NCBI RefSeq assembly: GCF_004005995.1
Contig: NZ_CP034767.1
Coordinates: 3,348,001-3,412,000, forward strand
DNA: 64,000 nt
Direction of reading: 5' to 3'
Source: Devosia sp. 1566
Lineage (GTDB): Bacteria > Pseudomonadota > Alphaproteobacteria > Rhizobiales > Devosiaceae
Numbering within the stretch: position 1 is the first letter of the stretch; each line of letters begins with the position of its first letter. The notes below the pieces were generated by a model. The model had not been told where the DNA came from. It saw only the letters and a program-made list of their open reading frames with translations, and did no database searches. This document shows positions 20,730-37,409 of the stretch, one piece after another. Made by a program: the position numbers and the translations under genes.

Positions 20730-22235
20730 TCACGCGGGGCGCACCCTAATAGCTAAGTGGGGTAGCCCGGGCAATTCGACAGCGAACGCTGCATCGGGCT
20801 TGCGGGGTTGGAAATGGGTACCGTGTCGGGTCGGATGGTTTTCCGGGGCGTTGATGATACGCGCCGGAACCACAGTCATGTTCCAGGTGTCTATAAGATC
20901 CACCTCGTACTTGCCGTTGTCCTGCGGCAGGCCGGTAGCCCAGATCACCGGCTGGTGCTCGCCGAAGTAGATGATCGTTGTGTCACCGTCACGAGCCCCA
21001 GAGATGCGGTTCCATGGGAAGCTCATTGCCGGGTCGATCGGCTCAAAGCCGTCTTGCGTGCTTTGCTCCAATACCTCCCGCAAGAAGCCTATTCGCTTCC
21101 AAGCTTGGCCGCGCAGCTCACCGCCCTTTGCCCACCAGATAAGATCTTCGGGATGGGAGAACGTCTCGCCATGTCCTGCGTAGCCCCCACGCATCGTGGT
21201 GGTCCAGAACCGGTGGGTCAACTCCTCAGCTGTTATGTTGCCCCAGCTTTGGATGATATTGCCTTCATACTCCGGTTCGTCGTTCACGACGGGCTTGCCA
21301 TATGCCAAGCGCCATTCCCCAGTACGCTTCACGTCCCAGTTCTGGATGCATACGTGGGTCACCCAAGCCTTACGATGGTCGTAGTTAGCCTCCAGATCAC
21401 CGTTGTGGATCGAGCGAAGATGTCCATAGGGATCGTTTTCCTCGATGATGTGGAAGTAACGGTCCCACTGGTGCAGGGGTTTGGTATCAAGCAGAAAATC
21501 ATACTCGTTGGCCAACGACCACCAGACATTGTGGTAGGCGGAAAGACGGGCCGTAAGATACGCAAAATACCGGTAATCCTGTTGCTCGTTCATGTCGCTG
21601 TAGCCCCAACGATCATATGGGTGGAGCATGATGATATCGGCCTGGATGCCCAGGTCGCCGAGCGCCTTCACCTGCTTCTCAAAGTGCCGGAAGCTCTCTG
21701 GGTTTGGACGGTCGAAGTCCAGCTCTCCCAAACCATCTCGCTGGTATACGTCATGCAACGCTTCGTTGACGTTGTAGGGGTAGTCCTTGGGAAATACCCC
21801 CATTCGCATCTTGTTGAAACGCGTTTTGCTCAACGTCGCAAGCGTCTTCTCCTGTTCGGGGAGGGGCTGGTGCGTCCAGGCGTAGCACGTGGTGCCGAAT
21901 GGCAGAAACGGCGTACCGTCCGCGTGGGCGAAATGGAAACGGTTGGCTACCCGGACAGGACCGTGGCAGCCAGGATGCGGTTCGGAGACCCTCAAACTTC
22001 CGGTCTTACCGTCCAGGTCCGGGGCACTGGATCGCGTTAAATATGTCCAATCCCCGATATTGTCGGGCATGAAGCGAATGCGGTAGACCCCTTCGCCGTC
22101 GTAAAAGCCCGGCACTCGAACGACACGCCCGTGCTGCTGGAACATCGCCTCGAGGGCAACCTCGAGGAACGGATTGCCTTCCGATGGGCCGTTCAGCGCG
22201 ACCTCGAAAACATCCCACTGGGCAATTGTTGTCAT
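20730..22235 (-). CDS. cytoplasmic glycoside hydrolase (DUF5060/DUF4038/DUF5605 type), copy 1
   Basis: A 501-aa glycosidase. An N-terminal beta domain (VFEVALNGPSEGNPFLEV, DUF5060-like) is followed by an apiosidase-like (DUF4038) TIM barrel (TPFLPFGTTCYAWTHQ; MLHPYDRWGY; NVWWSLANEYDFLL with the probable acid Glu; KPVVNDEPEYEG with further candidate Asp/Glu) and a C-terminal beta domain (ISGARDGDTTIIYFGEHQP). There is no signal peptide, so it should act on imported glycosides. The start is ATG 22235 behind AGAGGAAG; the longer frame is rejected. It shares roughly half its residues with 23422-24969, and is last in the importer operon. Confidence 0.82.
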   Translation of the reverse strand: MTTIAQWDVFEVALNGPSEGNPFLEVALEAMFQQHGRVVRVPGFYDGEGVYRIRFMPDNIGDWTYLTRSSAPDLDGKTGSLRVSEPHPGCHGPVRVANRFHFAHADGTPFLPFGTTCYAWTHQPLPEQEKTLATLSKTRFNKMRMGVFPKDYPYNVNEALHDVYQRDGLGELDFDRPNPESFRHFEKQVKALGDLGIQADIIMLHPYDRWGYSDMNEQQDYRYFAYLTARLSAYHNVWWSLANEYDFLLDTKPLHQWDRYFHIIEENDPYGHLRSIHNGDLEANYDHRKAWVTHVCIQNWDVKRTGEWRLAYGKPVVNDEPEYEGNIIQSWGNITAEELTHRFWTTTMRGGYAGHGETFSHPEDLIWWAKGGELRGQAWKRIGFLREVLEQSTQDGFEPIDPAMSFPWNRISGARDGDTTIIYFGEHQPVIWATGLPQDNGKYEVDLIDTWNMTVVPARIINAPENHPTRHGTHFQPRKPDAAFAVELPGLPHLAIRVRPA

Positions 22236-22352
22236 ATACTTCCTCTTGAACCTCGCTGCGCTTGGGCAGTCCCGAGTAGTAGATCGAAATGCGCTCTGCA
22301 GCGGTCGACAGGCCGATCCCATCGCGGCCCTGTTCGGGAGAGCCTGCAAACC

Positions 22353-23420
22353 CTACGGTGAACCTTCCAATCGTCGGCCACCCTCCTGCATGAACAGATG
22401 GCCCTTGCCCGGCGCAAAAGCGATCTGCAGGGTTTGCCCGGGGCGTACGTCGAGGCGGTCCTTGAACACGCCCGTCATCTCCGTCCCAGCAACTTCCAGG
22501 ACGATGTGCGTCTCCGCACCCGTGGGTTCGACGAGCAGCACCTTCGCCATGCGCCCCCCCTCGGACACGATCTCCAGGTGCTCGGGCCTGATGCCGTAGA
22601 CCAAGGCCTTGCCCTGGCCGTCGAGAGGGATCGTGCCCAGATCGAGCAATGTGCCGTCCTTGGCGCGCAGACCACCCGCTTCGGATTGCCCGCCGATGAA
22701 ATTCATGGATGGGGATCCGAGGAAACCGGCCACGAACATGTTCACCGGTCTGTCGTACAGGTCCAGTGGCGAGCCGAACTGCTCGACCCTGCCGGCGTTC
22801 ATCACAACGATCTTGTCGGCCATCGTCATGGCCTCGATCTGGTCATGCGTGACGTAGACGATGGTCGACTCGAGCCGTTGGTGGAGGGCCTTGATCTCCG
22901 CGCGCATCTGCACGCGGAGCTTGGCGTCGAGGTTAGACAAGGGCTCGTCGAACAGGAATACATCGGGGTCGCGCACGATCGCGCGCCCCATTGCGACACG
23001 CTGGCGCTGGCCTCCGGAAAGCTGGGAAGGCTTGCGACCCAGCAGAGGGGTGAGGCTCAGGATTTCCGCCGCCTCTTCGACCTTCCGGCGGATCTCCGGC
23101 TTCTTCATGCCCGCGATTTCAAGGGAGAACGCCAGGTTCTGGGCGACCGTCATCTGCGGGTACAAAGCATAGTTCTGGAACACCATCGCGATGTTCCGCT
23201 CCTTGGGGGAGAGGGCGTTCACCACCCTCCCGCCAATATCCACGCGGCCCTCCGATATCTCCTCGAGCCCGGCTATCATCCTGAGGAGCGTGGACTTGCC
23301 GCAGCCCGAAGGACCCACGAGGATGACGAACTCTCCATCCGCGATATCGATGTCGACACCATGGATGACCTGCTGCGCTCCGTATGCCTTTTGCACGCCC
23401 CTGATCGATATTGGTGCCAT
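22353..23420 (-). CDS. sugar ABC importer ATPase (UgpC/MsmX type)
   Basis: A MalK-type ATPase of 355 aa: Walker A GPSGCGKST, Q-loop VFQNYALYPQMT, signature LSGGQRQRVAMGRAI, Walker B VFLFDEPLSNLD, H-loop VTHDQIEAMT, then the C-terminal TOBE/OB region (GIRPEHLEIVSEG). It powers the permeases encoded at 24974-26772. The start is MAPISIRG at 23420, with AGGAGG in front; ten more upstream codons are open but overlap the preceding gene. It sits between the two glycosidase genes, an unusual placement that ties hydrolases and importer into one unit. Confidence 0.92.
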   Translation of the reverse strand: MAPISIRGVQKAYGAQQVIHGVDIDIADGEFVILVGPSGCGKSTLLRMIAGLEEISEGRVDIGGRVVNALSPKERNIAMVFQNYALYPQMTVAQNLAFSLEIAGMKKPEIRRKVEEAAEILSLTPLLGRKPSQLSGGQRQRVAMGRAIVRDPDVFLFDEPLSNLDAKLRVQMRAEIKALHQRLESTIVYVTHDQIEAMTMADKIVVMNAGRVEQFGSPLDLYDRPVNMFVAGFLGSPSMNFIGGQSEAGGLRAKDGTLLDLGTIPLDGQGKALVYGIRPEHLEIVSEGGRMAKVLLVEPTGAETHIVLEVAGTEMTGVFKDRLDVRPGQTLQIAFAPGKGHLFMQEGGRRLEGSP

Positions 23421-23421
23421 C

Positions 23422-24969
23422 TTATGACCTCCTACGGTCCTTGCGTGCACGTACTCGCACGGCTTGGTAAGGTTTTCCCGGCAGCTTTAGCCCGAAAGCC
23501 GCATTGGCCTGGTTCGAGACCTTTGCGCCGCCACTCACCCGTTGCGGATGAACGCGCGGCAAGTCGGCTCTTGGTAGAGATGTGACCGTCATGTTCCAAA
23601 CGTCGATGAGATCGATCTCCCAGTCGCCGTCCTCTTCGGGCAGCCCTTCCGCAAATTCCCTGGGCTGATGCTCCGAGAAATAGATGATGCGGACGTCCGC
23701 ATCCTGAACACCGGAGATCCGTACGTGGAAGCTCTCGCTTAAGCCTGTAAGCGGCTCGAACCCGTTCTTTACATCCTCGAGGAATATCTGGCGTGCGAAG
23801 GCAATCCTTGCTGGCGCCTCTCCTTTGAGCACTCCGCCCTTGGACCACCAAAGCTCATCTTCGGCGTTGAGATAACTCTCGCCATGGCCGATATAGCCGC
23901 CACGGCTGAGCGTACACCAGTACCGATCGACCAAGCTCTTGGCGTCGATGTTTCCCCAAAGCTTGGGTATATCGCCCTCGTACTCTGGTTCATCATTGAC
24001 GACGGGTTTGCCGTAGGCGTCTCGCCACTGCTCGGTCTTCCGAACATCCCAATTCTGAATGCAGACGTGGGTTACCCAAGGCTTGCGGTGGTCGTAGTTC
24101 TTGTCGGCGGCTCCATTGTGAATCGATTTGAGGTGACGGAGCGGATCCCCCTCCTCGATAAGCTGGAAGAAGCGGTCCCAAAGGCCCATGGGCTTTTGAT
24201 CAAGGAGGAAATCATACTCGTTGGCGAGGGACCACCAGACATTCCGGTAACTTGAAAGTCGAGCAACCACATATCTAAGATAACGAAGGTCCTGCTCCTC
24301 CGTCATGGTACAATAGCCCCACCGGTCATATGGGTGGAACAAGATAACATCCGCTTCGATGCCGAGTTCGCTCAAGCGGCCTACCTGTCTCTCGAAGTGT
24401 CTGAAGCACTCGAAATTGGGCCGGTCCATATCGTGGGTGCCGTCCACCGTTCGCTCGAACACGTGGTGCAGTGGTTCGTTGGTGTTGTAGATGTAGTCTT
24501 TGGGGAAAATGCCCATCCGAATCTTGTTGAATGGACTACTAGAGAGGGTCTGAAGCGTTTTCTCCTGCAACTCGGCAGTTTGATGTGTCCACGCATAGCA
24601 AGTTGTGCCGAACGGTAGAAATGGCGTCTCATCAGCGTAGGCGAAGTGAAATTGGTTGCGGGCTCGGACCGGACCGTGCACCCCAGCACGCGGCGGCACC
24701 GCAACAAAGCCTCCCACTAAACCATCCAGTTCAACGGCGTTCGAATGTAACTCGAACTTCCATTCGCCTTCGACGTCAGGGCAGAAACGCACCACGTACT
24801 TGCCGTTGCCATCGTAGAACCCCCAGACTCGAACGAGACGATTGCCAAGGGAGAAGGTTGCTTCCAGCTGCACATCAAGATAGGGATTTCCCTCGGCGGG
24901 CCCGCGGGCAACCGTCTCGAAAACGTCCCACACCGGAACCGTGGGGGCTGAGTGCTTTTGCGAGATCAA
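23422..24969 (-). CDS. cytoplasmic glycoside hydrolase (DUF5060/DUF4038/DUF5605 type), copy 2
   Basis: A 515-aa paralogue of the enzyme at 20730-22235, with the same three-part layout: VFETVARGPAEGNPYLDV, FLPFGTTCYAWTHQTAELQE, LFHPYDRWGYCTMTEEQD, VWWSLANEYDFLLDQ, KPVVNDEPEYEGDI and a C-terminal ISGVQDADVRIIYFSEHQP. It has no signal peptide. Translation seems to start at TTG 24969, five bases after the permease stop. The GH140-like relatives known are apiosidases; two diverged copies could handle different aglycones or anomers. That substrate is an inference from the family and the downstream pathway genes. Confidence 0.82.
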   Translation of the reverse strand: MISQKHSAPTVPVWDVFETVARGPAEGNPYLDVQLEATFSLGNRLVRVWGFYDGNGKYVVRFCPDVEGEWKFELHSNAVELDGLVGGFVAVPPRAGVHGPVRARNQFHFAYADETPFLPFGTTCYAWTHQTAELQEKTLQTLSSSPFNKIRMGIFPKDYIYNTNEPLHHVFERTVDGTHDMDRPNFECFRHFERQVGRLSELGIEADVILFHPYDRWGYCTMTEEQDLRYLRYVVARLSSYRNVWWSLANEYDFLLDQKPMGLWDRFFQLIEEGDPLRHLKSIHNGAADKNYDHRKPWVTHVCIQNWDVRKTEQWRDAYGKPVVNDEPEYEGDIPKLWGNIDAKSLVDRYWCTLSRGGYIGHGESYLNAEDELWWSKGGVLKGEAPARIAFARQIFLEDVKNGFEPLTGLSESFHVRISGVQDADVRIIYFSEHQPREFAEGLPEEDGDWEIDLIDVWNMTVTSLPRADLPRVHPQRVSGGAKVSNQANAAFGLKLPGKPYQAVRVRARKDRRRS

Positions 24970-24973
24970 TGGC

Positions 24974-25849
24974 TTATCCCTTCACGGCGCCGGACGTGAG
25001 CCCGCTGACGAAGTAGCGCTGGAAGATCATGTAGACGAGTATCGCTGGAAACACGGTCATCACGATGGCTGAATTGAGTTGGGCATAATCACGCGAGAAC
25101 TGCCCCTGGAAGGACATCAGCCCGAGTGGAAGCGTCCACATCTTTGGGTCCTGCAAAAGGACCAACGCCATTCCAAACTCGTTCCAGGTAGAAACAAAAT
25201 CAAGGATAAGTAAGGCAGCAAGCACTGGCAGGGAGATCGGTAAGAAAATTCTGCGGAAGACTGTGAAGTGGGATGCACCATCTATCAAGGCAGCCTCGGA
25301 AATCTCCTTCGGCACAGCCCTGAAGAAGCCGTGCAGGATGAAGACCTGGTACGGCACACCAAACGCGAGATACGCAAGGATCACCCCAGGGTAGCTGTTG
25401 ATGAGGCCCAATCCGTTCACCAGCGTGAAGATCGGCGCCAGCATCACCTGGAACGGGATCATCGCGCCAAAGAGTACGAAGACGAGGAGGAACTTGCCGA
25501 TACGCCCCAGATCGATGCGAGCTAGGGCATAGGCCGCCATGGCTGAGATTACGAGACCCAACGGCACCTTGATCAGAGTGATAATGAAGCTGTTGCGGAA
25601 AGTGGTCGAGAAGTTACCCCGCTCCCATGCACCCGCGAAGTTCTCGAAGCGCATGGTCTCCGGCGGTGCGAAGGCCGACGTGGACATGATCTCGGGATTG
25701 GTCTTGAGAGCCGTGAAAACGATGAAGACGAAGGGCGCCACCCAAATTAGGGCCACCGAGACCAGAACGATCCAGAGCACGATGAGAAGTGGGTCGCGAC
25801 GCTTGGCGGGAGCTTCCGCATCCTCCAGGCTGGAGATGATCGAGGTCAT
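24974..25849 (-). CDS. sugar ABC importer permease (MalG type)
   Basis: A 291-aa inner-membrane permease with six hydrophobic segments and the EAA loop EISEAALIDGASHFTVFRRI, which contacts the ATPase. Its N-terminal tail (TSIISSLEDAEAPAKRRDP) is cytoplasmic. The start overlaps the end of the upstream permease (ATGA, 25846-25849). It pairs with that MalF-type protein to form the channel for the substrate delivered by the binding protein at 26814. Confidence 0.92.
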   Translation of the reverse strand: MTSIISSLEDAEAPAKRRDPLLIVLWIVLVSVALIWVAPFVFIVFTALKTNPEIMSTSAFAPPETMRFENFAGAWERGNFSTTFRNSFIITLIKVPLGLVISAMAAYALARIDLGRIGKFLLVFVLFGAMIPFQVMLAPIFTLVNGLGLINSYPGVILAYLAFGVPYQVFILHGFFRAVPKEISEAALIDGASHFTVFRRIFLPISLPVLAALLILDFVSTWNEFGMALVLLQDPKMWTLPLGLMSFQGQFSRDYAQLNSAIVMTVFPAILVYMIFQRYFVSGLTSGAVKG

Positions 25850-26772
25850 CGCGAAGCCTCCTCACGTCGCTGGGACCAGCGAAGGTATGGGATGATGACA
25901 GCCAACGTAATAAGAAGAAGGATCACCGAAATGGCCGAGCCCCTCCCGAAGTTGAAGATCTGCATGGATTGCGTGAACGCCCAAAGTGCCAACATCTGCG
26001 TGGACTGAGCGGGGCCGCCCCCTGTCATGCCATAGACGATGTCGAAGGCTTTCAGCGAGGAGATGGTCGAAAGCACCAGTACGATGGTGATCGTCGTCAT
26101 GAGAGCCGGCAGTGTCACGTGGACGAAGCCCTGCCAACGGTTGCATCCATCAATGCGTGCCGCTTCCACCAGGGAGCGGTCAACGTTCTGCAGTCCTGCC
26201 AGAAACAGGACCATCGAAAATCCGACATGCTGCCAAGTGTAGGCAACGAACATGGAATAGAGCGCGACTTTGCGGTCGCCCAGCCAGTCCTGAATCAATC
26301 CTGTCATTCCCCAGGAGGTCAAGATCTGATTGAAGAGCCCGAAGAACGGATCGTACATCCACCGCCACATCGTTGCGACCGCAATGGGAGCAACAATGAC
26401 TGGCAAGTAGTAGATGGCTCGAAGCGGGACCCGACCGAACAGGTTTTCATTCAAACCAAGGGCAAGCAGCAGTCCGAGCACCGGCGGAAAGATTACGGAC
26501 ATGACGGTCCAGATCACCGTGTTCCTGAAGGCTGCCCAGAAAACGGGATCTTCCGTGAAGATGCGTCGGTAGTTCTCGACACCGATCCATGCTCGGTCGG
26601 CCGACAGCCCGTCCCAACTTTGAAAGCTCAGGAAGATCACCTCGATGATGGGCCAGATGGCGAAAGTGGCGTAGACGAGTATAGCCGGACCCATGAGCAT
26701 GGCGGCCTGCGTCCGAGGCGAACTGAACAGCTTAGGTGATGTCATTTGGAAGTCCGATGGTACGGGGTCCAC
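25846..26772 (-). CDS. sugar ABC importer permease (MalF type)
   Basis: A permease of up to 308 aa with six membrane segments and the EAA loop LVEAARIDGCNRWQGFVHVT. The start is uncertain: GTG 26772 has no clear ribosome site, and ATG 26745 (MTSPKLFSS) is an equally good choice. It is the second gene of the importer operon, directly after the binding protein gene. Confidence 0.9.
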   Translation of the reverse strand: MDPVPSDFQMTSPKLFSSPRTQAAMLMGPAILVYATFAIWPIIEVIFLSFQSWDGLSADRAWIGVENYRRIFTEDPVFWAAFRNTVIWTVMSVIFPPVLGLLLALGLNENLFGRVPLRAIYYLPVIVAPIAVATMWRWMYDPFFGLFNQILTSWGMTGLIQDWLGDRKVALYSMFVAYTWQHVGFSMVLFLAGLQNVDRSLVEAARIDGCNRWQGFVHVTLPALMTTITIVLVLSTISSLKAFDIVYGMTGGGPAQSTQMLALWAFTQSMQIFNFGRGSAISVILLLITLAVIIPYLRWSQRREEASR

Positions 26773-26813
26773 AGCAAAGGATTGCCGCAGACCCCAGACG
26801 CAAGCATCAAAGC

Positions 26814-28061
26814 TCAGCCGCGGTTGCCGATGAAGGTCTGCATGGCAGCGGCAGCGGCATCCGCCTCCATGTTGCCTGACGCGACTTCATTGATCACGCG
26901 GAAGTACTCGGTTGTGACGTCTAGCGGGAAAGCCTGATCCCCGTTGACGAAGGTACCGGTCGCGCCTTCGAAAAGAGCCAACCAGTCTCGATACATAGCT
27001 GGCGCATCCTCGGCAACCTGAACGTTGGTGTTCACGGACAACGCGCCAAACGAGCCTTTGATTTGGTCCTGTAACTCGTCCGACGTAAAGAAATCCAAGA
27101 ACTCTGCAGCTAGATCTGGATTGTCTGCCTTGGAGGAGATGTACCAATATTCAGCGAAACCATAAAGTCGGCCAGTTCCAGTCGGCAGTTTGAACACGCC
27201 AAAGTCGTTTACATCCGAAGTGTTCTCGGCGAGCTGATTCACGAACCAATCGCCCTGCAGTGCCATCGCCGCACGGCCGGCATAATACAGCTGGTTTGAC
27301 TGAGGCTCATCAATGCCCATGAAAGGCGAGAGAATATAGTTCTCCCCCCATTTTTTCATTTCGGCGAACGCTTCCGTGGCACATGGCGTCGAGCTCCAGT
27401 CTGCCTCCATGCTCGTCAATGCGTCATGGGTCTCCGCACCGCACTTCGCTTCAAGCAGCATGTCCATAAGCCGCATCACATGCCAATTGACGGTTCCACC
27501 GAACGTGATAGGAGCAATGCCTGCCTGCTTTAGCTTCTCAGCAACTTCGACCAACTCGTCGTATGTGGTTGGCGGCGCCGTTATCCCCGCTTTCTCGAAG
27601 AGATCCTTGTTGTAATAAATGCCTTCACCCGAGAACCGGAACGGGATACCGTGCTTGCCTTCAGCAAAAGCACTATTGAATGCAAGGGACGGAGCCGACA
27701 GGCGCTCTTCCCAGCCGTACTGATCATAGTACTTGGACATGTCTCTACTCAGACCTGCCTTAACGTACTCGCCGCCCAGCCCCAGCCCAGCCCAGCTCAT
27801 GTAAATGTCCGGTCCGGTATTAGATCCAGCCGCCACCCGCAGTGACGTTTTGTGCTCGTCAGTACCCCGCATCACGATCTCAACGTCGACACCCGGGTGC
27901 GAGGCCTCGAATGTTTCTTCAATGCTCTTGAGAGCATTCACCTGCTTTTCAGCCTGGTAGCTGATCGTCCAAATAGTCAGCCGCTGGTCCTGCGCGTACG
28001 CGGCACCTGCTAAGCAGGTCAGTGCGGTGCTAAGCGCGAGCGCTCGTACAAATTTAGCCAT
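26814..28061 (-). CDS. sugar ABC importer substrate-binding protein
   Basis: A periplasmic extracellular-solute-binding protein (family 1) of 415 aa. The signal peptide is MAKFVRALALSTALTCLAGA with cleavage near AYAQD. Conserved segments include RLTIWTISYQAEKQVNALK, YYNKDLFEKAGI and AALQGDWFVNQL-type motifs. The start at 28061 has GGGAGGAA in front; the track-like longer frame runs through the promoter. A strong TTGACA box lies 63-68 bp upstream. As first gene it likely determines what the island imports, plausibly an apiose-containing glycoside. Confidence 0.92.
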   Translation of the reverse strand: MAKFVRALALSTALTCLAGAAYAQDQRLTIWTISYQAEKQVNALKSIEETFEASHPGVDVEIVMRGTDEHKTSLRVAAGSNTGPDIYMSWAGLGLGGEYVKAGLSRDMSKYYDQYGWEERLSAPSLAFNSAFAEGKHGIPFRFSGEGIYYNKDLFEKAGITAPPTTYDELVEVAEKLKQAGIAPITFGGTVNWHVMRLMDMLLEAKCGAETHDALTSMEADWSSTPCATEAFAEMKKWGENYILSPFMGIDEPQSNQLYYAGRAAMALQGDWFVNQLAENTSDVNDFGVFKLPTGTGRLYGFAEYWYISSKADNPDLAAEFLDFFTSDELQDQIKGSFGALSVNTNVQVAEDAPAMYRDWLALFEGATGTFVNGDQAFPLDVTTEYFRVINEVASGNMEADAAAAAMQTFIGNRG

Positions 28062-28100
28062 GTTGCATTCCTCCCGGAGGTATTGACCCCTCGACGAAGG

Positions 28101-28129
28101 AACATGCAAGCACACCAAACGAATGTCAA
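28101..28129 (-). promoter_or_regulatory. promoter of the importer operon
   Basis: On the minus strand: TTGACA (28124-28129), a 17-base spacer, then CATGTT (28101-28106) as a weak -10, about 40 bp before the binding protein ATG. Just upstream TCGAAA (28134-28139) resembles the CGAAAG repeats before the transketolase operon, so the same DeoR regulator may act here. 28140-28479 holds nothing else that I can identify. Confidence 0.5.
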
Positions 28130-28479
28130 ATAGTTTCGATTTTTGCGCAATTCCGCGGTATAAGTGCGAGATGTTCAGTCGGTCACACGGCAGATGTTCT
28201 CGACCAACAAACTATTTCTCTCAACCAGGCCACTGTCGACGAGCCGCTGCACTCCTGGGCAGTGACTGAGCGCTCCCAAGTTAACGGATCACCGGCATAG
28301 CCAAGAAGGCGTAGTTATTGCGCCCGTGCCGCGCTGCCGGCGCCGGTGCCTGAGGAGGTGCAATTGGTCGAGGAAGCCATTTACCTAAGCCCAAAGCTGA
28401 CTATCCATAAAACGGGTCCGCTCCGGCGACCAGGTTGGAGCTCGGGCAGGGCTTAGGTTCTTACTCCGTTGGAGCGCCC

Positions 28480-29307
28480 CTATTGTGCAATTAGAACATG
28501 CACGCCGCGCTTCTCGAATTGGGCACGATCTTCGTCCGAGATGCCTTCGTCTGTGATCAAAGTGTTGACCAGTTCGACGCCACCCAGGGCCGAGAAGGAT
28601 ACCTTTCCGATCTTAGTCGAATCGGCCAGCAAATAGACCTGCGAAGCTGCTTTGATCATCGCCCGCTTGACGTAGATGTCCCCGATTGCGGGATAGGTCA
28701 GCCCCACATCGAAGGACACGCCCGCCGTCGCGAGAAACAGCTTCTGCGCATATATCCCTACGAAGAACTCCACGGACTTCTCACCGCTTAGCGACAGCGT
28801 CGGTGCCTTGAACTGCCCAGCTGGCATATGAACCGTGTTGGTGGGAATCGCACCCAAGATCAGCGCTATGTTTAGGGCATTGGTGATGATGTTGAGATCG
28901 TGCCGCGACTTCAGATTCTCGGCGAACTGGGTCGTTGTTGTTCCCGAGTCTATTATCAGAGTATCACTGTCCGACACCAGTGCTGCTGCCGCGACACCAA
29001 TAGCGCGCTTCCTGTCCATGTTCTGAACATGCTGCAAAGTCATGGATTGAACCTGCTGAGGAACGGATTTCAGGTATGCGCCTCCATGCTCTCGGGTGAT
29101 GAAGCCATCTCGGTCCAGCCTCTCCAGGTCTTGGCGGATTGTCGCCTCGGAAACGCCGAACGCGGCCGAGAGGTCCCGCACGCGTGCGCTGCCCTCTTCC
29201 TGCAGCCACTCAAGGATGCGCATGCGTCGGGGCTCAGCCAACAATTGCGGCCGACTGCCTGCTTGGACATCTCCTTTACCTTTGTGGCCTGCGTCGATTT
29301 TTGGCAC
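28480..29307 (-). CDS. DeoR-family transcriptional regulator
   Basis: A 275-aa repressor-type protein: N-terminal DeoR helix-turn-helix (RMRILEWLQEEGSARVRDLS; VSEATIRQDLERLDRDGFI; EHGGAY), then a sugar-phosphate-binding DeoRC domain with DSGTTTTQFAENL and the LFLATAGVSFDVGLT and LLADSTKIGKVSF motifs. Such regulators sense phosphorylated sugars. The start is GTG 29307 preceded by AAGGAGG. It sits between the import/hydrolase operon and the catabolic operon and probably controls both. Confidence 0.88.
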   Translation of the reverse strand: MPKIDAGHKGKGDVQAGSRPQLLAEPRRMRILEWLQEEGSARVRDLSAAFGVSEATIRQDLERLDRDGFITREHGGAYLKSVPQQVQSMTLQHVQNMDRKRAIGVAAAALVSDSDTLIIDSGTTTTQFAENLKSRHDLNIITNALNIALILGAIPTNTVHMPAGQFKAPTLSLSGEKSVEFFVGIYAQKLFLATAGVSFDVGLTYPAIGDIYVKRAMIKAASQVYLLADSTKIGKVSFSALGGVELVNTLITDEGISDEDRAQFEKRGVHVLIAQ

Positions 29308-29420
29308 CTATTAGCCTCCTTGGCGGTACAGCCATCATAGCGTTAGATCATGCAGAGCAGTGCTAGTTACAATACGTTTGAACAGCCAAAAGCAGCACAA
29401 AGCACATTAAGATCGCCACA

Positions 29421-29449
29421 ATCGAAAGGCAAAACGAAAGAAATCGAGG
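29421..29449. promoter_or_regulatory. candidate DeoR operator (CGAAAG repeats)
   Basis: Two CGAAAG copies at 29423-29428 and 29435-29440, 12 bp apart, followed by TCGA at 29444. DeoR/GlpR-type repressors bind repeated TTCG/CGAA-rich sites. The location between the regulator gene and the transketolase gene fits control of both. Confidence 0.4.
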
Positions 29450-29542
29450 ATTTTGTCATTGCACGACCGCAATCCGAACGATAGTGATTGAACTAGAAGG
29501 GGCTTCAAGCAACCCGCTCCACGTACCGCCTGAGAGGCTGCC

Positions 29543-30382
29543 TTGCTATCACCCACTACGCCGCTCACGAATGATCTCGTAGGCGCCATTGCGCAAAGGG
29601 CCCTGTGGATTCGTCGCCGCAGCTTCCAGATGGTCTATGAAGCCCAGCTCGGTCACCCCGGCGGCGACTTCAGCGCCACCGACATCCTGGCCACGCTCTA
29701 CTTCGGCATTATGCGCTACGATCCCAAGTCGCCCCGAGACCCCGGCCGCGACCGTTTCGTCATGAGCAAGGGCCATTGCACCGGCGCCTTCTACTCCGTC
29801 CTCGCAGCAGCCGGCTACTTCCCCCAAGCCGACCTTTCCACCTACATGCAGCCGCTCTCCAAGCTGAACGGCCATCCCAACCGCAATTATTTGCCGGGCG
29901 TTGAAACCAACACTGGCCCCCTGGGTCATGGCCTGCCCGTCGCGACCGGCATTGCCATCGCCGGCCAGATCGATGGTGCCGACTACCGCACATTCGTGCT
30001 GACCGGCGACGGCGAACTCCAGGAAGGCAGCAATTGGGAATCGGCGCTCACCGCCGCCCACCGCAAGCTCGAAAACCTGACGCTGATCGTTGACCGCAAC
30101 CGCCTGCAACAGGGCGCCGGCACCGAGGAAACCGCATCGCTTGATCCGCTCGACGACAAATGGCGCGCCTTTGGCTGGCATGTGGAAGTGGTCGACGGCC
30201 ACGACTACCGGCAGTTGCTCGACGTGCTGTCGGCCTCACCCAAGGGCCGCGCCAAACCGCTTTGCGTGATCGCCAACACGTTCAAGGGCAAGGGCGTAAG
30301 CTTCATGCACGACAACGTCTCTTGGCATCATGGCGTGCCCACGAAAGAACAATACGAACAAGCCTTAGTGGAGCTGGTCTGA
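29543..30382 (+). CDS. aptA: transketolase N-terminal subunit, probable apulose-4-phosphate transketolase subunit A
   Basis: The thiamine-diphosphate-binding half of a split transketolase (279 aa): GHPGGDFSATDILATLYFG, KGHCTGAFYSVLA, GPLGHGLPVATGIA and the cofactor motif GDGELQEGSNWESALTAAHR ... LIVDRN. It starts at TTG 29543, with GAGAGG upstream, as no ATG fits. Its stop overlaps the next gene's ATG. Split transketolases of this form include AptAB, which converts D-apulose 4-phosphate plus glyceraldehyde 3-phosphate to dihydroxyacetone phosphate and xylulose 5-phosphate. The assignment rests on the adjacent kinase and isomerase; a general sugar transketolase role remains possible. Confidence 0.7.
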   Translation: MLSPTTPLTNDLVGAIAQRALWIRRRSFQMVYEAQLGHPGGDFSATDILATLYFGIMRYDPKSPRDPGRDRFVMSKGHCTGAFYSVLAAAGYFPQADLSTYMQPLSKLNGHPNRNYLPGVETNTGPLGHGLPVATGIAIAGQIDGADYRTFVLTGDGELQEGSNWESALTAAHRKLENLTLIVDRNRLQQGAGTEETASLDPLDDKWRAFGWHVEVVDGHDYRQLLDVLSASPKGRAKPLCVIANTFKGKGVSFMHDNVSWHHGVPTKEQYEQALVELV

Positions 30383-31341
30383 TGAGTGCTGCCCCTTCCA
30401 AGAAAGATGGCTACTTCGATTGCCGCGACAGCTTTGCCGCTACCATCGAGGCACTGGCAGAAGCCGATCCGCGCATCGTCACAGTCGTCAGCGACAGCGT
30501 CGGCTCCTCCAAGCTGGGCGGCTTCCGCAAGAAGTTTCCCGAGCGCATGGTCAATGTCGGCATTGCCGAGCAGACCCTGGTCGCCGTCGGCGCGGGCCTT
30601 GCCAATGGCGGCAAGATACCGTTTGTTTCCGCCGCCTCGTGCTTCATCACCGGGCGGGCAATGGAACAGGTCAAGGCGGATATCGCCTATAGCAATGTCA
30701 ACGTGAAGCTGATCGGGCAGTCGAGCGGCGTCGCTTACGGCGAACTCGGCCCGACGCACCACTCCATAGAAGATCTCGCCTGGCTGCGCCTTTTCAACAA
30801 TCTCCAGCTCATCGTACCCGCCGATCCTTGGCAGACCGCCGAAGCCATCAAGGCCGCAGCAGCCTTTGATGGCCCGGTTTTTGTTCGCGTCAGCCGCATG
30901 GCCGTTCCCGCGCTGGAGCGCCCGGCTGGTGCACGCTTCGAGATCGGGAAGGCGGAGACGCTACTGGACGGTCACGACGCGGCCATTATCGCCAACGGCA
31001 CCACGGTGCACCGGGCCGTCGCCGCAGCCAGAACCCTTGCTGCCGAAGGCATTTCCACCCGCGTGGTCAACATGGCAACGGTAAACCCGCTCGACGAAAC
31101 CGCCATCGCCGAGGCCGCCGCCACCGGCGCTATTGTTACAGTGGAAGAGCATTCCGTCCGTGGCGGGCTTGGCGGCGCAGTCGCCGAGATCGTTTCCACC
31201 ACCAATCCGGTCCCCATGCGCATCCTGGGCTTCCCGGGCTTTGTGCCCACCGGCTCGGCCGAATGGCTGTTCGACCATTTTGGACTGAACGAAGCCGGCA
31301 TCGCGGATGCCGTTCGCCAGACGGTCGCGCGCAAGAAATGA
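30382..31341 (+). CDS. aptB: transketolase C-terminal subunit, probable apulose-4-phosphate transketolase subunit B
   Basis: The pyrimidine-binding and C-terminal half (319 aa): the conserved Glu in VNVGIAEQTLVAVGAGLA, SAASCFITGRAMEQVK, GPTHHSIEDLAWLR and the C-domain VVNMATVNPLDETAIAEAAA ... VEEHSVRGGLGGAVAE. Start ATG 30382 shares its A with the stop of subunit A, a coupling that fits equal subunit production. Its own stop overlaps the kinase ATG (ATGA). Confidence 0.7.
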   Translation: MSAAPSKKDGYFDCRDSFAATIEALAEADPRIVTVVSDSVGSSKLGGFRKKFPERMVNVGIAEQTLVAVGAGLANGGKIPFVSAASCFITGRAMEQVKADIAYSNVNVKLIGQSSGVAYGELGPTHHSIEDLAWLRLFNNLQLIVPADPWQTAEAIKAAAAFDGPVFVRVSRMAVPALERPAGARFEIGKAETLLDGHDAAIIANGTTVHRAVAAARTLAAEGISTRVVNMATVNPLDETAIAEAAATGAIVTVEEHSVRGGLGGAVAEIVSTTNPVPMRILGFPGFVPTGSAEWLFDHFGLNEAGIADAVRQTVARKK

Positions 31342-32837
31342 CGGGCGAGTTGATCCTCGCCATAGACCAGGGCACCACCAACACCAAGGCCCTCCTGGTG
31401 GACGCCACCGGCCAAGTGCTGCACCAGGCGTCTGTGCCAAACATCGTGACCTATCCTCAGCCCGGCTGGGCCGAGCAATCCGCTACCGGGCTGGTTGAAG
31501 GCGTCGACCAAGTCATTGCAGAGGTCATCGCCAAAGCTGGTGACCCTTCTATTGCGGCGATCGGTATCTCCAACCAGCGCGAGTCTATCATCGTCTGGGA
31601 CGCTGCAACGGGCGAACCCATCGGCCCCTGCATCATTTGGCAATGCCGCCGATCAGCTCCGACCTGCGAGGCGTTGCAGGCCGCCGGGCATGCGGAGACG
31701 ATCGAGTCAAAGACCGGACTGTCGCTCGATCCCCTGTTTCCGGCGGGCAAGATCGGCTGGTTGCTCGACAATGTGCCCGACGCCCGCAGACGCGCCGAGA
31801 AGGGCAAGCTCCGCGCCGGTACCGTCGATAGCTGGCTCCTCTGGAACCTTTCGGGCGGCGCAGTCCACGCCACTGATCATTCCAACGCCTCGCGCACCCA
31901 GCTCTTCAATACCCAGACCCTGCAATGGGACGCCGAGCTGTGCGACCTCTTTGGCGTGCCACTTCCGCTGCTCCCCGAGGTGCGCTCCTCTAATGCACAG
32001 TTCGGCTTTCTCGCCGCGGGGGCCACCGCTCTCCCAGCCGGCGTTCCCATACAAGCCATGATCGGGGACTCCCACGCAGCCCTCTTCGGCCACGGCGTGC
32101 GCACACCAGGCACGGCCAAGGCCACCTATGGCACGGGCACCTCGCTGATGGCGCTGACGCCCGGCCGCCTCAGCTCGCACCATGGGATTTCCAGCACCAT
32201 CGCCTGGAGCCTGGACGGCGCCGTCCAACACGCGCTCGAAGGCAATATCTCCGTTTCCGGTCAGGCTGCCGCGTTTGCGGCCGAGCTCTTGGGGATCGGC
32301 GACGCCGCCGCGCTGTCGGCGCTCGCCCAAACCGTTCCCGACAGCAATGGCGTGGTCTTTGTGCCGGCCCTGGTGGGCCTTGGCGCCCCCTACTGGCGCG
32401 CCGACGCCCGCGGCACCATCACCGGCCTGACCCTTGGCACCAAGCCCGCGCACCTCGCCCGTGCCGCCCTTGAAGCCATCGCCTTCCAGGTCCGCGATGT
32501 TTATGCCGCCATGGAAGCTGACATGGGCTCTCCTTTGGGCGAATTGCGGGCGGATGGCGGCGCTTCCCGCAATGCAGTCCTGATGCAGTTTCAGGCCGAC
32601 ATTCTGGGTCGGCCGGTTGTCGCCGCTGCCGCTCCCGAAGTCAGCGCACTGGGTGCCGCTGCCCTCGCCTTCTCGGCCCTCGGCATTGCTCTGCCTGGCG
32701 TGCCCGCCGCCGCGCAGTTCGCCCCGGACATAGCCCCCGACACACGCGCGACCCATCTCTGCCGCTGGCACGCAGCCATTGGACAGACGCTGGCGACCGG
32801 CAAAACCAATCAACAAAATCCCGGAGGAACCCAATGA
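31338..32837 (+). CDS. apsK: FGGY-family sugar kinase, probable D-apulose kinase
   Basis: A 499-aa FGGY kinase resembling glycerol kinase: N-terminal phosphate loop LAIDQGTTNTKALLVDATG, ISNQRESIIVWD, WQCRR, TYGTGTSLMAL in the second domain and the ADGGASRNAVLMQFQADILG signature. The start overlaps the transketolase stop (ATGA at 31338-31341); an earlier in-frame start at 31263 is inside that gene. In the known D-apiose pathway an FGGY kinase (ApsK) makes D-apulose 4-phosphate. By sequence alone other ketose or polyol substrates are possible. Confidence 0.65.
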   Translation: MTGELILAIDQGTTNTKALLVDATGQVLHQASVPNIVTYPQPGWAEQSATGLVEGVDQVIAEVIAKAGDPSIAAIGISNQRESIIVWDAATGEPIGPCIIWQCRRSAPTCEALQAAGHAETIESKTGLSLDPLFPAGKIGWLLDNVPDARRRAEKGKLRAGTVDSWLLWNLSGGAVHATDHSNASRTQLFNTQTLQWDAELCDLFGVPLPLLPEVRSSNAQFGFLAAGATALPAGVPIQAMIGDSHAALFGHGVRTPGTAKATYGTGTSLMALTPGRLSSHHGISSTIAWSLDGAVQHALEGNISVSGQAAAFAAELLGIGDAAALSALAQTVPDSNGVVFVPALVGLGAPYWRADARGTITGLTLGTKPAHLARAALEAIAFQVRDVYAAMEADMGSPLGELRADGGASRNAVLMQFQADILGRPVVAAAAPEVSALGAAALAFSALGIALPGVPAAAQFAPDIAPDTRATHLCRWHAAIGQTLATGKTNQQNPGGTQ

Positions 32838-33823
32838 CCACGCCCCGCTTTGGAGCAGGCATCTGGCACTTTGCCACCTATCTCGATCGCTACGCCACCG
32901 ACGGCTACGGCACGCCGCGCAACATCATCGAGGCCATCGATCTGGCCGGCCAGGTCAAGGACCTGTCCGTCGTCGACCTCAACTGGCCCTATTTCGGCGG
33001 CGAATTCTCCGACACGCAGATCAAGGCGGCGCTCGATCGCAACAATCTCGGCGTCATCGGCATAACCCCGGAGATCTACACCCGCGACTTCGTCAAGGGC
33101 GCCTTCACCAATCCCGACGCCGGCATCCGCCGCAAGGCCCACGAGTTGATCACCGCGGCCTGCGATGTCGTGCGCTTCCACAAGGCCGACTATGTCAAAC
33201 TCTGGCCCGGCCAGGACGGCTGGGACTATCCATTCCAAGTTGATTACTCAACCCAGTGGCAGCGCTCGCTCGACGGCGTTGGCCAGCTCGCAAGTGAAAA
33301 CCCGGACCTCAAATTCGTCATCGAATACAAACCGCGCGAACCCCGCGTGCGCATGAGCTTTGGCTCTGTCGCCCGCACCATCCTTGGCATCGAAAAGATC
33401 GGCCTGCCAAACGTCGGCATTCTCCTCGATTTCGGCCACGCCATCATGGGCGGCGAATCTGCGGCTGACTCAGCCCAGCTCGCGATAGATCACGGCCGAC
33501 TTTTCGGTATGGACGTAAATGACAACTACCGCTCCTGGGATGACGACCTCGTGGCTGGCAGCCTCCATCCCATAGAACTCTTTGAGTTCTTCTATGTGCT
33601 CAAGAAAAACAACTGGAACGGCGTCTGGCAGCTTGACCAGTTCCCCTTCCGCGAAGACAGCGTTGCCACGGCAACCCATGCAATCGATTTTCTCAAGGCT
33701 GCCGCACGGGGCCTCGATCGCCTCGACACGGATGCGCTGCAGGAAGCCCAAAGCCGCCATGATGCCATCGGGGCGCTCAAGATCGCGCAGAAGGCCCTGT
33801 TCAGCGCAATGGGAGAGCAGTGA
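32834..33823 (+). CDS. apsI: TIM-barrel sugar isomerase, probable D-apiose isomerase
   Basis: A 329-aa xylose-isomerase/AP-endonuclease-2-like barrel. Metal-ligand candidates are E in FVIEYKPREPRVRMSF, D/H in ILLDFGHAIMGGES, D in LFGMDVNDNYRSWDDD and the late D in WQLDQFPFRED. ATGA overlap with the kinase gene, preceded by GGAGGAACCC. In the D-apiose pathway ApsI converts apiose to apulose before phosphorylation, and it is of this fold. Gene order (transketolase, kinase, isomerase) supports the call; the exact substrate is inferred. Confidence 0.65.
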   Translation: MTTPRFGAGIWHFATYLDRYATDGYGTPRNIIEAIDLAGQVKDLSVVDLNWPYFGGEFSDTQIKAALDRNNLGVIGITPEIYTRDFVKGAFTNPDAGIRRKAHELITAACDVVRFHKADYVKLWPGQDGWDYPFQVDYSTQWQRSLDGVGQLASENPDLKFVIEYKPREPRVRMSFGSVARTILGIEKIGLPNVGILLDFGHAIMGGESAADSAQLAIDHGRLFGMDVNDNYRSWDDDLVAGSLHPIELFEFFYVLKKNNWNGVWQLDQFPFREDSVATATHAIDFLKAAARGLDRLDTDALQEAQSRHDAIGALKIAQKALFSAMGEQ

Positions 33824-34728
33824 TGAGCAATCTTCCCTTCAACAAGCGTGCGCGTCTTATTCTCAACACCGATGCCAAGAACGAGGCCGACGACCAGTTC
33901 ACCATCGTTCATGCCCTATTGACCCCCACTTTTGATTTCCATGGCATCATCGCGGCTCATTTTGGCGATCATCGCTCCAAGACATCGATGCAGGACAGCC
34001 GGATCGAGATTGATCATCTCCTGGAGCTCATGAACCTTTCTGGCCGCATCCCGGTCGCTGATGGCGCTGCCAAAGCCCTGCCCGACGAGAACACGCCGGT
34101 GCCCTCCCCCGGCGCCCAGCTCATTATTGATCAGGCCATGCGCGATGACGACCGCCCGCTCTATGTTGCCTTCCTTGGACCGCTGACCGACATGGCCTCG
34201 GCCCTGCTCATGGAACCACGCCTTAACGAACGCCAAGTAATCTGCGTCTGGATTGGCGGCGGCGTTTGGCCCTCAGGGGGCCGCGAGTTCAATTTGATGA
34301 ACGACATCGCTGCGGCAAATGTCGTCATGCGCTCCAAAATACAAGTCTGGCAGATCCCCTCCACCGTTTATCGCATGATGGCCGTCAGCTATGCCGAGTT
34401 GCAGGAGCGCTGCGAGGACAAAGGAGCTGTCGGCAAATACCTCGTTGACCAGTTGATCGAGTGGAATCTGCGCGTGCACCAAGGGCCGATCGAGCACCGC
34501 TCGCTTGGCGACACGCCTGCCCTTTCCGTCATTCTCAACCCAATGGGTGGCGTGTCAGAATGGCGGCCAGCGCCTGAGTTCTCGCCCCAGATGCACTACA
34601 TCCACAACGGCCAGAACCGTCCGATCAAGGTCTACGACACCATCGACGTGCGCTATATCCTTGAGGACTTCTACGCCAAGCTCGCCCGCTTTAACCGGGG
34701 CGTTCAGGGCTTAGCGAATTTCGGCTAA
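33823..34728 (+). CDS. nucleoside-hydrolase-family protein
   Basis: A 301-aa protein of the inosine-uridine nucleoside hydrolase fold. The calcium-binding Asp cluster is LILNTDAKNEADDQF, a variant of the usual DTDPGxDDA, with later motifs VAFLGPLTDMASALL and REFNLMNDIAAANVVM (the N...D pattern before the C-terminal acidic residue). ATG 33823 overlaps the isomerase stop (TGATG). Family members cleave N- or C-glycosidic ribosides. Its role in an apiose operon is unknown; a glycoside or lactone of the branched pentose is one guess. Confidence 0.75.
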   Translation: MSNLPFNKRARLILNTDAKNEADDQFTIVHALLTPTFDFHGIIAAHFGDHRSKTSMQDSRIEIDHLLELMNLSGRIPVADGAAKALPDENTPVPSPGAQLIIDQAMRDDDRPLYVAFLGPLTDMASALLMEPRLNERQVICVWIGGGVWPSGGREFNLMNDIAAANVVMRSKIQVWQIPSTVYRMMAVSYAELQERCEDKGAVGKYLVDQLIEWNLRVHQGPIEHRSLGDTPALSVILNPMGGVSEWRPAPEFSPQMHYIHNGQNRPIKVYDTIDVRYILEDFYAKLARFNRGVQGLANFG

Positions 34729-35742: not shown

Positions 35743-35941
35743 GACCAATGTGGGCGGGTACGCTAATTGAGAACACAGTTCTCCTGCTTCCAGGTGGCCG
35801 GCGATTGCCCGCCCCAGATATCCAATGGTTGATCGAGTTGTTTATGTCTACACAGCACATCAGCAGATTGTTCTATTCGAAAAAATTAGCCGACGAAAAG
35901 GCGAATTCCCCCCGGGGGCCGCGAACAAAAGGCTGCAAGAT

Positions 35942-37384
35942 ATGACTTCTTCTTCCGATCCAGTGCCGGACGATGCCACCGTCCTGCAGTCGAGGTTTCC
36001 CACCGCCTATTCCATCCTGTTCGGTTTCATCGTGCTGGTCGCAGCGCTGACGTGGATCATCCCAGCCGGGCAATATGAGCGGGTGGAGAACGAGGCGGTG
36101 GGTCGGACGGTCGCTGTAGCCGGTACATATACTGAGGTGCCGCCCAATCCGCAGGGTTTTCTCGACGCTATGCTCGCCCCCGTAGCCGGCTTCTATAACC
36201 CCGACAGCTATGCCGCCAACGCTATCGACGTGGCTTTGTTCGTGCTGTTCCTGGGCGGTTTCCTCGGCGTCGTGAATGCCACGGGTGCCATTGACACTGG
36301 TATCCGTGCGGCCATGACGAAGCTGCAGGGGCACGAAATCTGGATGATCCCGATCCTGATGTGCCTCTTCGCGCTTGGCGGCACCACCTTCGGTATGGCC
36401 GAAGAAACGCTGCCGTTCTATGCAATCCTGATCCCCGCAATGATCGCTGCGCGTTATGACGCCGTCACCGGGGTCGCCGTAATCCTGATCGGCGCAGGCA
36501 TCGGCGTACTCGGGTCGACCATCAACCCCTTCGCCACGGTCATCGGATCAGACGCGGCGGGGATCCCGTTTACCGACGGCATCGCGCTGCGTGTGGTGCT
36601 GCTAATCGGCGGGTTGGTGATATGTATCGCCTATGTCATGCGCTACGCCAGGCGTGTGCAGGCCGATCCCACCCGCTCCGTCGTCGCGCATCAGGCTGCG
36701 GCGTACCGTCGTCTCTTTTTGGCTGACGGAGAGGAGGCCGAAAACAAGCTAAGCACCACGCAGAGCATCGTCCTGGTCGTGTTTGCCCTCACCTTTGCGG
36801 TAATGATCTGGGGAGTCTCCTCACAGGATTGGTGGATGGCGCAGATGAGCGCGCTTTTCATTGGCGCCGCAATCGTCACAGGCATCATCGCCCGGCTAGG
36901 CGAAAAGCGGCTGACCGGAAGCTTCGTCGACGGCGCGCGAGATCTGCTGGGCGTCGCATTGGTGATCGGGCTGGCCCGCGGCATCGTGGTGATCATGGAA
37001 AACGGCCGGATCGCCGACACCATTCTGCACGCTGCCGAAAGCTCGCTTGGAAGTCTGGACAAACTCGCCTTCATCAATCTTATTTTCTGGATCGAGGTCG
37101 GGATGAGTTTCTTCGTGCCGTCTTCATCCGGTCTCGCCGTGCTGTCGATGCCAATTCTGGCACCGCTGGCGGACTTTGACGGAGTCGACCGCGCCCTCGT
37201 CGTCACTGCTTATCAATCCGCCAACGGCCTCGTTAACCTCATCAACCCCACTTTCGCGGTGGTCATCGGAGGGCTTGCCATGGCGCGAGTGCCTTATGAC
37301 CGCTGGCTCGTCTTCATCTGGCCTCTACTCCCGATCTTGGCCGTGTTCATCTCGGCGGCACTCAGCGTAGCCGCCATCCTCTGA
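35942..37384 (+). CDS. YfcC-family basic amino acid antiporter (ArcD role)
   Basis: A 480-aa membrane protein of the YfcC/DcuC group: about 12 hydrophobic segments, with [20 protein letters not shown] at the start, [20 protein letters not shown] and the conserved [30 protein letters not shown] near the end. Position ahead of arcA-arcB-arcC indicates exchange of arginine for ornithine. The start MTSSSDP at 35942 is preferred over a longer frame from 35825, which runs through the promoter. Confidence 0.85.
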
Positions 37385-37409
37385 CTTCGGGGCTGTAAGG
37401 AGATATCCG

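Follow-up and report, generated by a model that had tools for sequence, protein, structure and literature searches.

A probable apioside utilisation island in Devosia sp. 1566: import, cytoplasmic release of apiose and its catabolism

Introduction

In plants, apiose is found in pectin (rhamnogalacturonan II, RG-II) and in glycosides of flavonoids and aroma compounds, and little was found in the openly licensed literature on how soil bacteria get it from glycosides. Can a bacterium import a small apioside, release the apiose in its cytoplasm and catabolise it? The question is raised by an island at positions 20730-34728 of a stretch of 64,000 nucleotides from Devosia sp. 1566 (contig NZ_CP034767.1, positions 3,348,001 to 3,412,000; hereafter the window), in which two divergent operons flank one DeoR gene (open reading frame coordinates, Pfam). 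A preliminary description of this DNA had proposed an apiose or apioside utilisation island; its facts were borne out, and its reading of the function is very probably correct. The gene families and their kinship indicate with high probability that the island serves import, cytoplasmic apiose release and catabolism. It supplies defined candidates for an importer and for cytosolic apiosidases, and such enzymes could possibly be used for making apiose-free flavonoids or releasing aroma compounds.

Gene content and order of the island

All the genes described earlier were found at their places, and their families and order were borne out by Pfam. In reading order, the minus-strand operon encodes an SBP_bac_1 solute-binding protein, two permeases, a glycosidase (GH2), a MalK/UgpC-type ATPase and another glycosidase (GH1), and the plus-strand operon encodes AptA, AptB, AplK, ApsI and a nucleoside-hydrolase-like protein (NH). 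The neighbouring plus-strand genes overlap by 1-4 bases, hence NH, which was missing from the gene list of the preliminary description, is a part of this operon. The gene set and order are not a matter of chance, because the same set and order recur in the genomes of relatives. The claimed four-gene apiose set (ApsI, AptA, AptB and a kinase) is present, with a correction to one name, as the kinase is called AplK and not ApsK in the accessible part of PMC13001218.

Glycosidase and importer genes beside two apiose pathways

The strongest argument for the substrate is the sharing of the glycosidase and importer genes between two apiose pathways. In the Rhizobiaceae loci L031, L032, L035 and L043, the genes for ApsI, AptA, AptB, AplK, the binding protein, two permeases, a glycosidase and the ATPase follow each other in one run, and L038 has the same run minus the kinase. 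Another gene set directly precedes the operon of binding protein, permeases, glycosidase and ATPase in Rhizobium johnstonii 3841 and in Rhizobium sp. TAL182. It encodes an Rbs-type importer, a Gfo/Idh/MocA dehydrogenase, a hypothetical protein of 620 residues, DhaK and DhaL, and in R. johnstonii also a four-carbon acid sugar kinase and a PGDH_C protein. From the gene families and their order we take this set as the oxidative apiose pathway. The enzymes of that pathway, as listed in the accessible part of a study on a D-apiose-growing strain (PMC11747546), are apiose dehydrogenase, apionolactonase, apionate oxidoisomerase, 3-oxoisoapionate kinase and 3-oxoisoapionate-4-phosphate decarboxylase. 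In the glycosidase tree, the proteins of L115, L118 and L120 (oxidative pathway) and those of L031 and L043 (isomerase pathway) form one clade (100/99). Since apiose is the common substrate of both enzymatically different adjoining pathways, the substrate of the glycosidase and importer would be an apiose compound as well.

The association also extends to whole genomes. Among 199 sampled Rhizobiaceae genomes (glycosidase matches with E up to 1e-100), either ApsI (one genome) or an apionolactonase-like gene (seven) was found in eight of the nine genomes with the glycosidase and in 42 of the 190 others (Fisher 7e-5); up to six apionolactonase candidates were scored per genome, so the count may be low. 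None of seven queried oxidative-pathway genes was matched in the window, and no apionolactonase-like gene was found in the best 80 of 372 ApsI loci.

Co-occurrence in the Devosiaceae

In a survey of 136 Devosiaceae genomes (ApsI with E up to 1e-60, glycosidase with E up to 1e-20), ApsI was present in 41, the glycosidase in 42, both in 37 and neither in 90 (Fisher 2.5e-23, a value in which independence is overstated, the genomes being related). A glycosidase gene lies 2.6-14.5 kb from ApsI (start to start, same contig) at 33 of the 42 full-length ApsI places, a short fragment (G324:C5) being excluded, and at the other nine there is none on the contig. A search for ApsI across the order was too sparse to be of use (2 of 249 genomes).

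The commonest layout of 20 mapped Devosiaceae stretches comprises the ApsI operon, mostly a DeoR gene, a Dpp-type (SBP_bac_5) importer and two glycosidases, GH-B and GH-A. The Dpp-type importer and the two glycosidases give way to an Rbs-type importer and a single GH-A in L110 and L112, and to the SBP_bac_1 importer with GH2 and GH1 in the window. GH1 falls in the tree with Devosia GH-A (100/98). GH2 falls with the glycosidases of the Rhizobium ApsI loci L032, L035 and L038 (100/100), whose order of binding protein, two permeases, glycosidase and ATPase matches that of the window as far as the ATPase. Hence, from the two tree positions and the gene order, the window looks like a Devosia island that received a Rhizobium-type importer and glycosidase module.

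All 41 Devosiaceae genomes with ApsI have the glycosidase or NH. A rule that each apiose island needs one or the other fits this count, but it is not significant and was given up, as NH is present in 28 of the 41 and the chance of such a fit is about 1 in 5.

Isomerase, transketolase and kinase

Judged by its homologues, ApsI is the diagnostic gene of the plus-strand operon. It is 95-97% identical to the proteins of D. submarina, D. ureilytica, D. soli and D. crocina, the nearest named relatives, and 88% identical to a TIM-barrel isomerase of Rhizobium sp. SL42, whose gene stands ahead of those for AptA, AptB and an FGGY kinase and diverges from an Rbs-type sugar importer. The identity to homologues of Croceibacterium, Pantoea and Streptomyces is 71, 60 and 55%, respectively. 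Among PDB entries, 3ktc (E 1.4e-125), which we take to be the Pectobacterium ApsI, matches far better than the runner-up (5e-16).

AptA and AptB are 73 and 65% identical to their SL42 counterparts and 46 and 40% identical to RS02710 and RS02715 of E. coli SE15. In the accessible part of PMC13001218, SE15-type AptA/AptB genes define the E. coli apiose cluster in a screen, and growth on D-apiose is reported for P. carotovorum, E. fergusonii and E. coli strains with a cluster; the Escherichia clusters are described there as lacking apsI, for which two oxidoreductases are thought to substitute. In a scan of 372 ApsI relatives, the best 80 of the 372 loci were analysed, of which at least 69 have AptA, at least 70 AptB and at least 69 an AplK-like kinase; these counts are lower bounds, as 24 of the 80 loci are shorter than 20.9 kb. 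The AptA, AptB and ApsI of the window group with the ApsI-linked sets and not with a divergent AptAB/AplK set. In a 23-row kinase tree, AplK of the window falls with ApsI-linked kinases of Devosia and Rhizobium (99/99) and GlpK elsewhere, the placement of E. coli AplK being unsupported.

The preliminary description had raised the possibility that kinase and isomerase are closer to another pathway. The isomerase stands up to this comparison, while the kinase alone is not diagnostic; kinase identity as sole proof of an apiose pathway was rejected, as GlpK is equally similar. The apiose assignment is supported by the kinship of ApsI and by the coupling of the glycosidase to two different apiose pathways. 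There was no apiose-named NCBIfam model among the matches listed for ten proteins of the window (for the ATPase, the best 25 of 188 matches). The non-oxidative D-apiose pathway itself is already known.

A side observation concerns conservation. Between the window and six actinobacterial loci ApsI is 79-80% identical, AplK about 41-43% and AptB about 50-53%, and the far better conservation of ApsI than of its partners suggests transfer or unusual constraint.

Several observations weigh against the apiose reading. Five of the 42 Devosiaceae genomes with the glycosidase have no ApsI match (G005, G267, G322, G328 and G337), and four of these have an AptA match, at 79-80% in G328 and G337, 87% over a part in G005 and only 54% in G322. 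In the Rhizobiaceae, the link between the glycosidase and ApsI alone is not significant (1 of 9 against 3 of 190, p 0.17), and around six of the nine glycosidase operons (L119, L121, L122, L123, L125 and L126) no queried apiose gene was found within about 9 kb. Genome G494 has the glycosidase with neither apiose marker, and its operon lies near a divergent AptAB/kinase set and a fucose-isomerase-like gene; the glycosidase operon of Aureimonas AU20 lies among aromatic-degradation genes. The oxidative-pathway assignment is our own, from gene families and gene order. Lastly, AplK is 42.5% identical to SE15 AplK, 42.8% to SE15 GlpK and 45% to the GlpK-like kinase of its own genome.

The two glycosidases

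Both GH1 and GH2 consist of DUF5060, the Apiosidase domain (PF13204) and DUF5605, with PF13204 scores of 67.0 and 62.2 bits against a cut-off of 26.5, and their N termini, as well as that of NH, are without a signal peptide by eye. The nearest named homologue of GH1 is that of Devosia ginsengisoli (84%). A profile of 30 glycosidase relatives found 4n0r as the only solved structure. This entry, presumably from Bacteroides/Phocaeicola vulgatus, is called 'putative glycoside hydrolase' in the PDB, aligns over profile positions 4-463 of 505 and has no substrate in its PDB listing. The candidate catalytic pair, E245 (in ANEYD) and E321 (in NDEP), is invariant in the 30 aligned glycosidases and retained in 4n0r, and the Glu of the ANEYD motif is present in both glycosidases of the window and in all 35 alignment rows.

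The preliminary description had assigned the two enzymes to the group that includes the GH140 apiosidases. That there are two PF13204 enzymes holds, but they are of the Glu/Glu subgroup with other accessory domains and are not GH140 in the strict sense. We take BT1012 (also written BT_1012) to be a member of GH140. This enzyme is a beta-apiosidase according to the accessible part of PMC7939467, and that of PMC4032388 gives Asp187/Glu284 as its catalytic pair and, for the first site across PF13204, Asp in 82% and Glu in 17.3%. The enzymes of the window have Glu and not the Asp187-type Asp, the columns being matched from a loose alignment without BT_1012 itself and from the Asp/Glu split in the part of PMC4032388 available. 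They appear to belong to the Glu class of PF13204 and are therefore not filed as GH140. Their C-terminal domain is DUF5605 and not PF12904; this is only a weak criterion for GH140, because about 60% of PF13204 members have PF12904 (PMC4032388, in the part available).

The genome has a third PF13204 protein outside the island (C1:1624203-1625288), with a stronger PF13204 score of 107.8 bits. Three homologues of GH1 (P0142, P0143 and P0159) carry the UniRef name alpha-L-rhamnosidase despite their PF13204 domains, a label that is probably wrong.

The nucleoside-hydrolase-fold protein

NH has the fold of a nucleoside hydrolase (PF01156/PF07632). Its subfamily, delimited at 36% identity or more, adjoins ApsI or the glycosidase at 31 of 32 Devosiaceae places, as against none of the 16 more distant NH places listed. 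It is also found beside the pathway in four actinobacterial loci, and in two Microvirga it occupies the operon position of the glycosidase, beside oxidative-pathway genes. The metal-site residues D17, D23/D24 and D230 align with those of RihA and RihC, and one metal-site Asp is replaced by Gly in three Microbacteriaceae relatives. Before the last metal Asp, all 42 aligned subfamily rows have Gly, RihA and RihC have His, and two other Devosiaceae NH proteins have Trp; in three known nucleoside hydrolase groups this position is presumably His, Trp or Cys.

Tentatively, and judging from these sequence features and gene neighbourhoods, the NH subfamily may be a second, evolutionarily unrelated, metal-dependent class of intracellular apiosidase, added to or exchanged with the PF13204 glycosidases in two pathways and two phyla. 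The proposal is attractive because beta-D-apiofuranose has the cis-2,3-diol of ribofuranose, on stereochemical reasoning. This diol of beta-D-apiofuranose (ribofuranose minus C5, with a hydroxymethyl group on C3) would replace that of ribose, and the nucleobase-contacting residue would have been lost because the leaving group is the alcohol of a sugar or aglycone. If NH acts on apiosides, an N-riboside fold has been recruited to O-glycosides, and if this is true an unknown share of the proteins that now go by the name 'nucleoside hydrolase' would have to be re-examined. NH is the part of the island that could surprise a specialist. The terms 'apiose' and 'nucleoside hydrolase' were not found together in the openly licensed literature, which is not proof of absence from print.

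A secreted NH-like protein beside ApsI in Croceibacterium was considered as further support and dropped (26% identity over a part); its row was excluded from the motif count and the tree. In L112, a 29% NH-like match (L112:17007-17570) lies 2.4 kb past the glycosidase of the island with the Rbs-type importer.

Importer, regulator and neighbouring genes

The importer consists of an SBP_bac_1 binding protein and two BPD_transp_1 permeases, and not of Peripla_BP_4 with RbsA/RbsC (Pfam). The PDB relatives of the binding protein include those for xylo-, chito- and malto-oligosaccharides. In the regions upstream of the two operons no shared 16-mer (with up to 3 mismatches) was found as a common operator; there is one 14-base palindrome upstream of aptA, where an A/T-rich stretch is seemingly conserved in some Devosia loci. 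To the right of the island (35825-38639) lie a DcuC-type carrier and then an arginine deiminase-like gene.

Table 1. Genes of the island, with positions in the window and the grounds for each name.
Feature	Position	Strand	Basis
GH1, DUF5060-PF13204-DUF5605 glycosidase, Devosia GH-A orthologue, presumably cytoplasmic	20730..22235	-	Pfam; PDB 4n0r E 3.2e-96; tree 100/98; no signal peptide by eye
MalK/UgpC-type importer ATPase	22353..23420	-	Pfam; NCBIfam PRK11650 above cut-off
GH2, second DUF5060-PF13204-DUF5605 glycosidase, start codon uncertain	23422..24969	-	Pfam; 58% identity to GH1; tree 100/100 with Rhizobium ApsI-linked glycosidases
Sugar ATP-binding cassette (ABC) permease 2	24974..25849	-	Pfam; 77-78% to Rhizobium L032/L035
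Sugar ABC permease 1	25846..26745	-	Pfam; 77-79% to Rhizobium L032/L035
SBP_bac_1 solute-binding protein, signal-peptide-like N terminus by eye	26814..28061	-	Pfam; PDB relatives
DeoR-family regulator between the operons	28480..29307	-	Pfam; NCBIfam AgaR-like below cut-off
AptA, N-terminal half of split apulose-4-phosphate transketolase	29543..30382	+	Pfam; 73% SL42, 46% E. coli SE15
AptB, Pyr/C half of split transketolase	30382..31341	+	Pfam; 65% SL42, 40% E. coli SE15
AplK, putative FGGY apulose kinase, GlpK-like group	31338..32837	+	Pfam, NCBIfam, identities, tree
ApsI, D-apiose isomerase, PF01261 TIM barrel	32834..33823	+	Pfam, PDB search, identities
NH, nucleoside-hydrolase-fold enzyme, candidate second apiosidase	33823..34728	+	PF01156/PF07632

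Proposed mechanism and alternative explanations

The substrates, cell location and regulation in the following scheme are deduced from the observed gene families, order, operon coupling, kinship and conserved co-occurrence. The ABC importer with its SBP_bac_1 protein would take up a small apiose-containing glycoside, from which GH1 and GH2, possibly aided or replaced by NH, would release D-apiose in the cytoplasm. ApsI would convert D-apiose to D-apulose, AplK would phosphorylate the D-apulose, and AptAB would yield dihydroxyacetone phosphate and xylulose 5-phosphate by a two-carbon transfer. The chemistry of ApsI, AplK and AptAB was reportedly established by Carter et al. in 2018. The DeoR protein would probably repress both operons until a pathway metabolite appears.

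The nature of the sugar and the bond cut by GH1 and GH2 could both be read otherwise. A catabolic operon for another pentose or a tetrulose is very improbable. In L124 a divergent AptAB/AplK set is accompanied by a SorC-type regulator and a fucose-isomerase-like gene, so that a split transketolase with a GlpK-like kinase is not unique to apiose; however, AptA, AptB and ApsI of the window belong to the ApsI-linked sets, and the glycosidase and importer module is common to the oxidative apiose clusters. It is also unlikely, though less remote, that importer and catabolism serve apiosides while GH1 and GH2 cut another bond, to an adjacent sugar or the aglycone, and NH or an unlinked enzyme frees the apiose. 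Two or three glycosidase matches in 32 of the 42 Devosiaceae genomes with the enzyme, in the mapped stretches mostly GH-A and GH-B paralogues, are what two bonds would call for; the Microbacterium STN6 island adds GH3 and GH42 genes, and the sole solved relative is labelled just as a putative hydrolase. Against this, L110 and L112 have a lone GH-A with their Rbs-type importer and ApsI operon, and each of the Rhizobium operons contains one glycosidase.

For NH, two further explanations compete with its tentative role as an apiosidase. It is doubtful, but a possibility to be reckoned with, that its substrate is a different furanoside from these plant glycosides, for example an arabinofuranoside, or else a by-product like apiosyl phosphate or an N-glycoside. 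Furanoside cleavage is the chemistry of the family, and of the 28 Devosiaceae genomes that have both ApsI and NH, 24 have the glycosidase too. The replacement of the glycosidase by NH in the Microvirga operons argues the other way, as does the presence of NH in all four ApsI genomes that lack the glycosidase, a count that is not significant with NH in 28 of the 41 overall. A role of NH as an ordinary (ribo)nucleoside hydrolase that salvages nucleosides or supplies ribose, and shares the operon by chance, would agree with its fold, with the 50 solved entries listed for it, which are all nucleoside or riboside hydrolases, and with the database labels. Such a chance association is improbable in view of the 31 of 32 Devosiaceae places against 0 of 16, the actinobacterial and Microvirga loci, and the invariant Gly.

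Apiose genes in other bacteria

Of the best 80 of 372 ApsI loci, 22 (L059, L065, L067, L068, L071-L076 and L078-L089) belong to Pelagibacteraceae (two of them, going by their titles) or to uncultured Alphaproteobacteria from the AG-/AH- series, presumably marine single cells. Their ApsI is 76-79% identical to that of the window, their kinase matches are at about 23-35%, and the three of these kinases that were placed in the tree fall with GlpK. It would be unexpected for SAR11-like bacteria to use apiose; 'SAR11' and 'apiose' were not found together in the openly licensed literature, which does not prove absence from print.

Rbs-type genes accompany the divergent AptAB/AplK set (about 52/61/48%) in four loci (L124, L025, L039 and L050). 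A SorC-type regulator lies by the set in L124, L025 and L050 (those examined), and L124 also has an SDR gene beside its fucose-isomerase-like gene. The sets perhaps represent a separate sugar pathway assembled from these components, although three of the four are within about 10 kb of ApsI.

ApsI also occurs without annotated partners nearby. On a Croceibacterium plasmid (L006:11986-14453) its neighbours are a GH65 gene, TonB receptors and the NH-like protein, whose N terminus resembles a signal peptide, with no AptAB or AplK among the annotated neighbours. Similarly, on a conjugative plasmid of Pantoea sp. At-9b (L007:9983-10975) it lies between pckA and exopolysaccharide genes, with no annotated AptAB or kinase near it. 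The GH3 and GH42 genes of Microbacterium STN6 (L127:2358-7945) hint at apiosyl-hexosides as the substrate.

Comparison with known systems

The plus-strand operon resembles the non-oxidative pathway of Carter et al. 2018 and the Enterobacteriaceae clusters, with ApsI, AptA, AptB and the putative AplK here in one operon; the E. coli SE15 cluster, unlike the window, is without ApsI. The apiose clusters of SL42 and SE15 have an Rbs-type importer, whereas the window has an SBP_bac_1 importer, with two glycosidases and NH added. Among the clusters that we assign to the oxidative pathway, those of Rhizobium have the same importer and glycosidase operon and those of Microvirga an SBP_bac_1 importer and NH, but their catabolic enzymes differ from those of the window.

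NH differs from the inosine-uridine nucleoside hydrolases (1mas, RihA and RihC) by Gly at the His/Trp position and by its apiose-linked context, and from RihA and RihC also by a WQ(I/V)P segment and a tyrosine. GH1 and GH2 share with BT_1012 the PF13204 catalytic domain, and the Glu of their NxEP-type motif aligns with that of other PF13204 proteins. They differ from BT_1012, with its Asp187/Glu284 pair and C-terminal PF12904, in a Glu/Glu pair, in DUF5060 and DUF5605 and in the lack of a signal peptide. Hence what is new in this island, as predicted from its genes, is that another type of importer and glycosidases outside GH140 and without signal peptides are joined to a known pathway.

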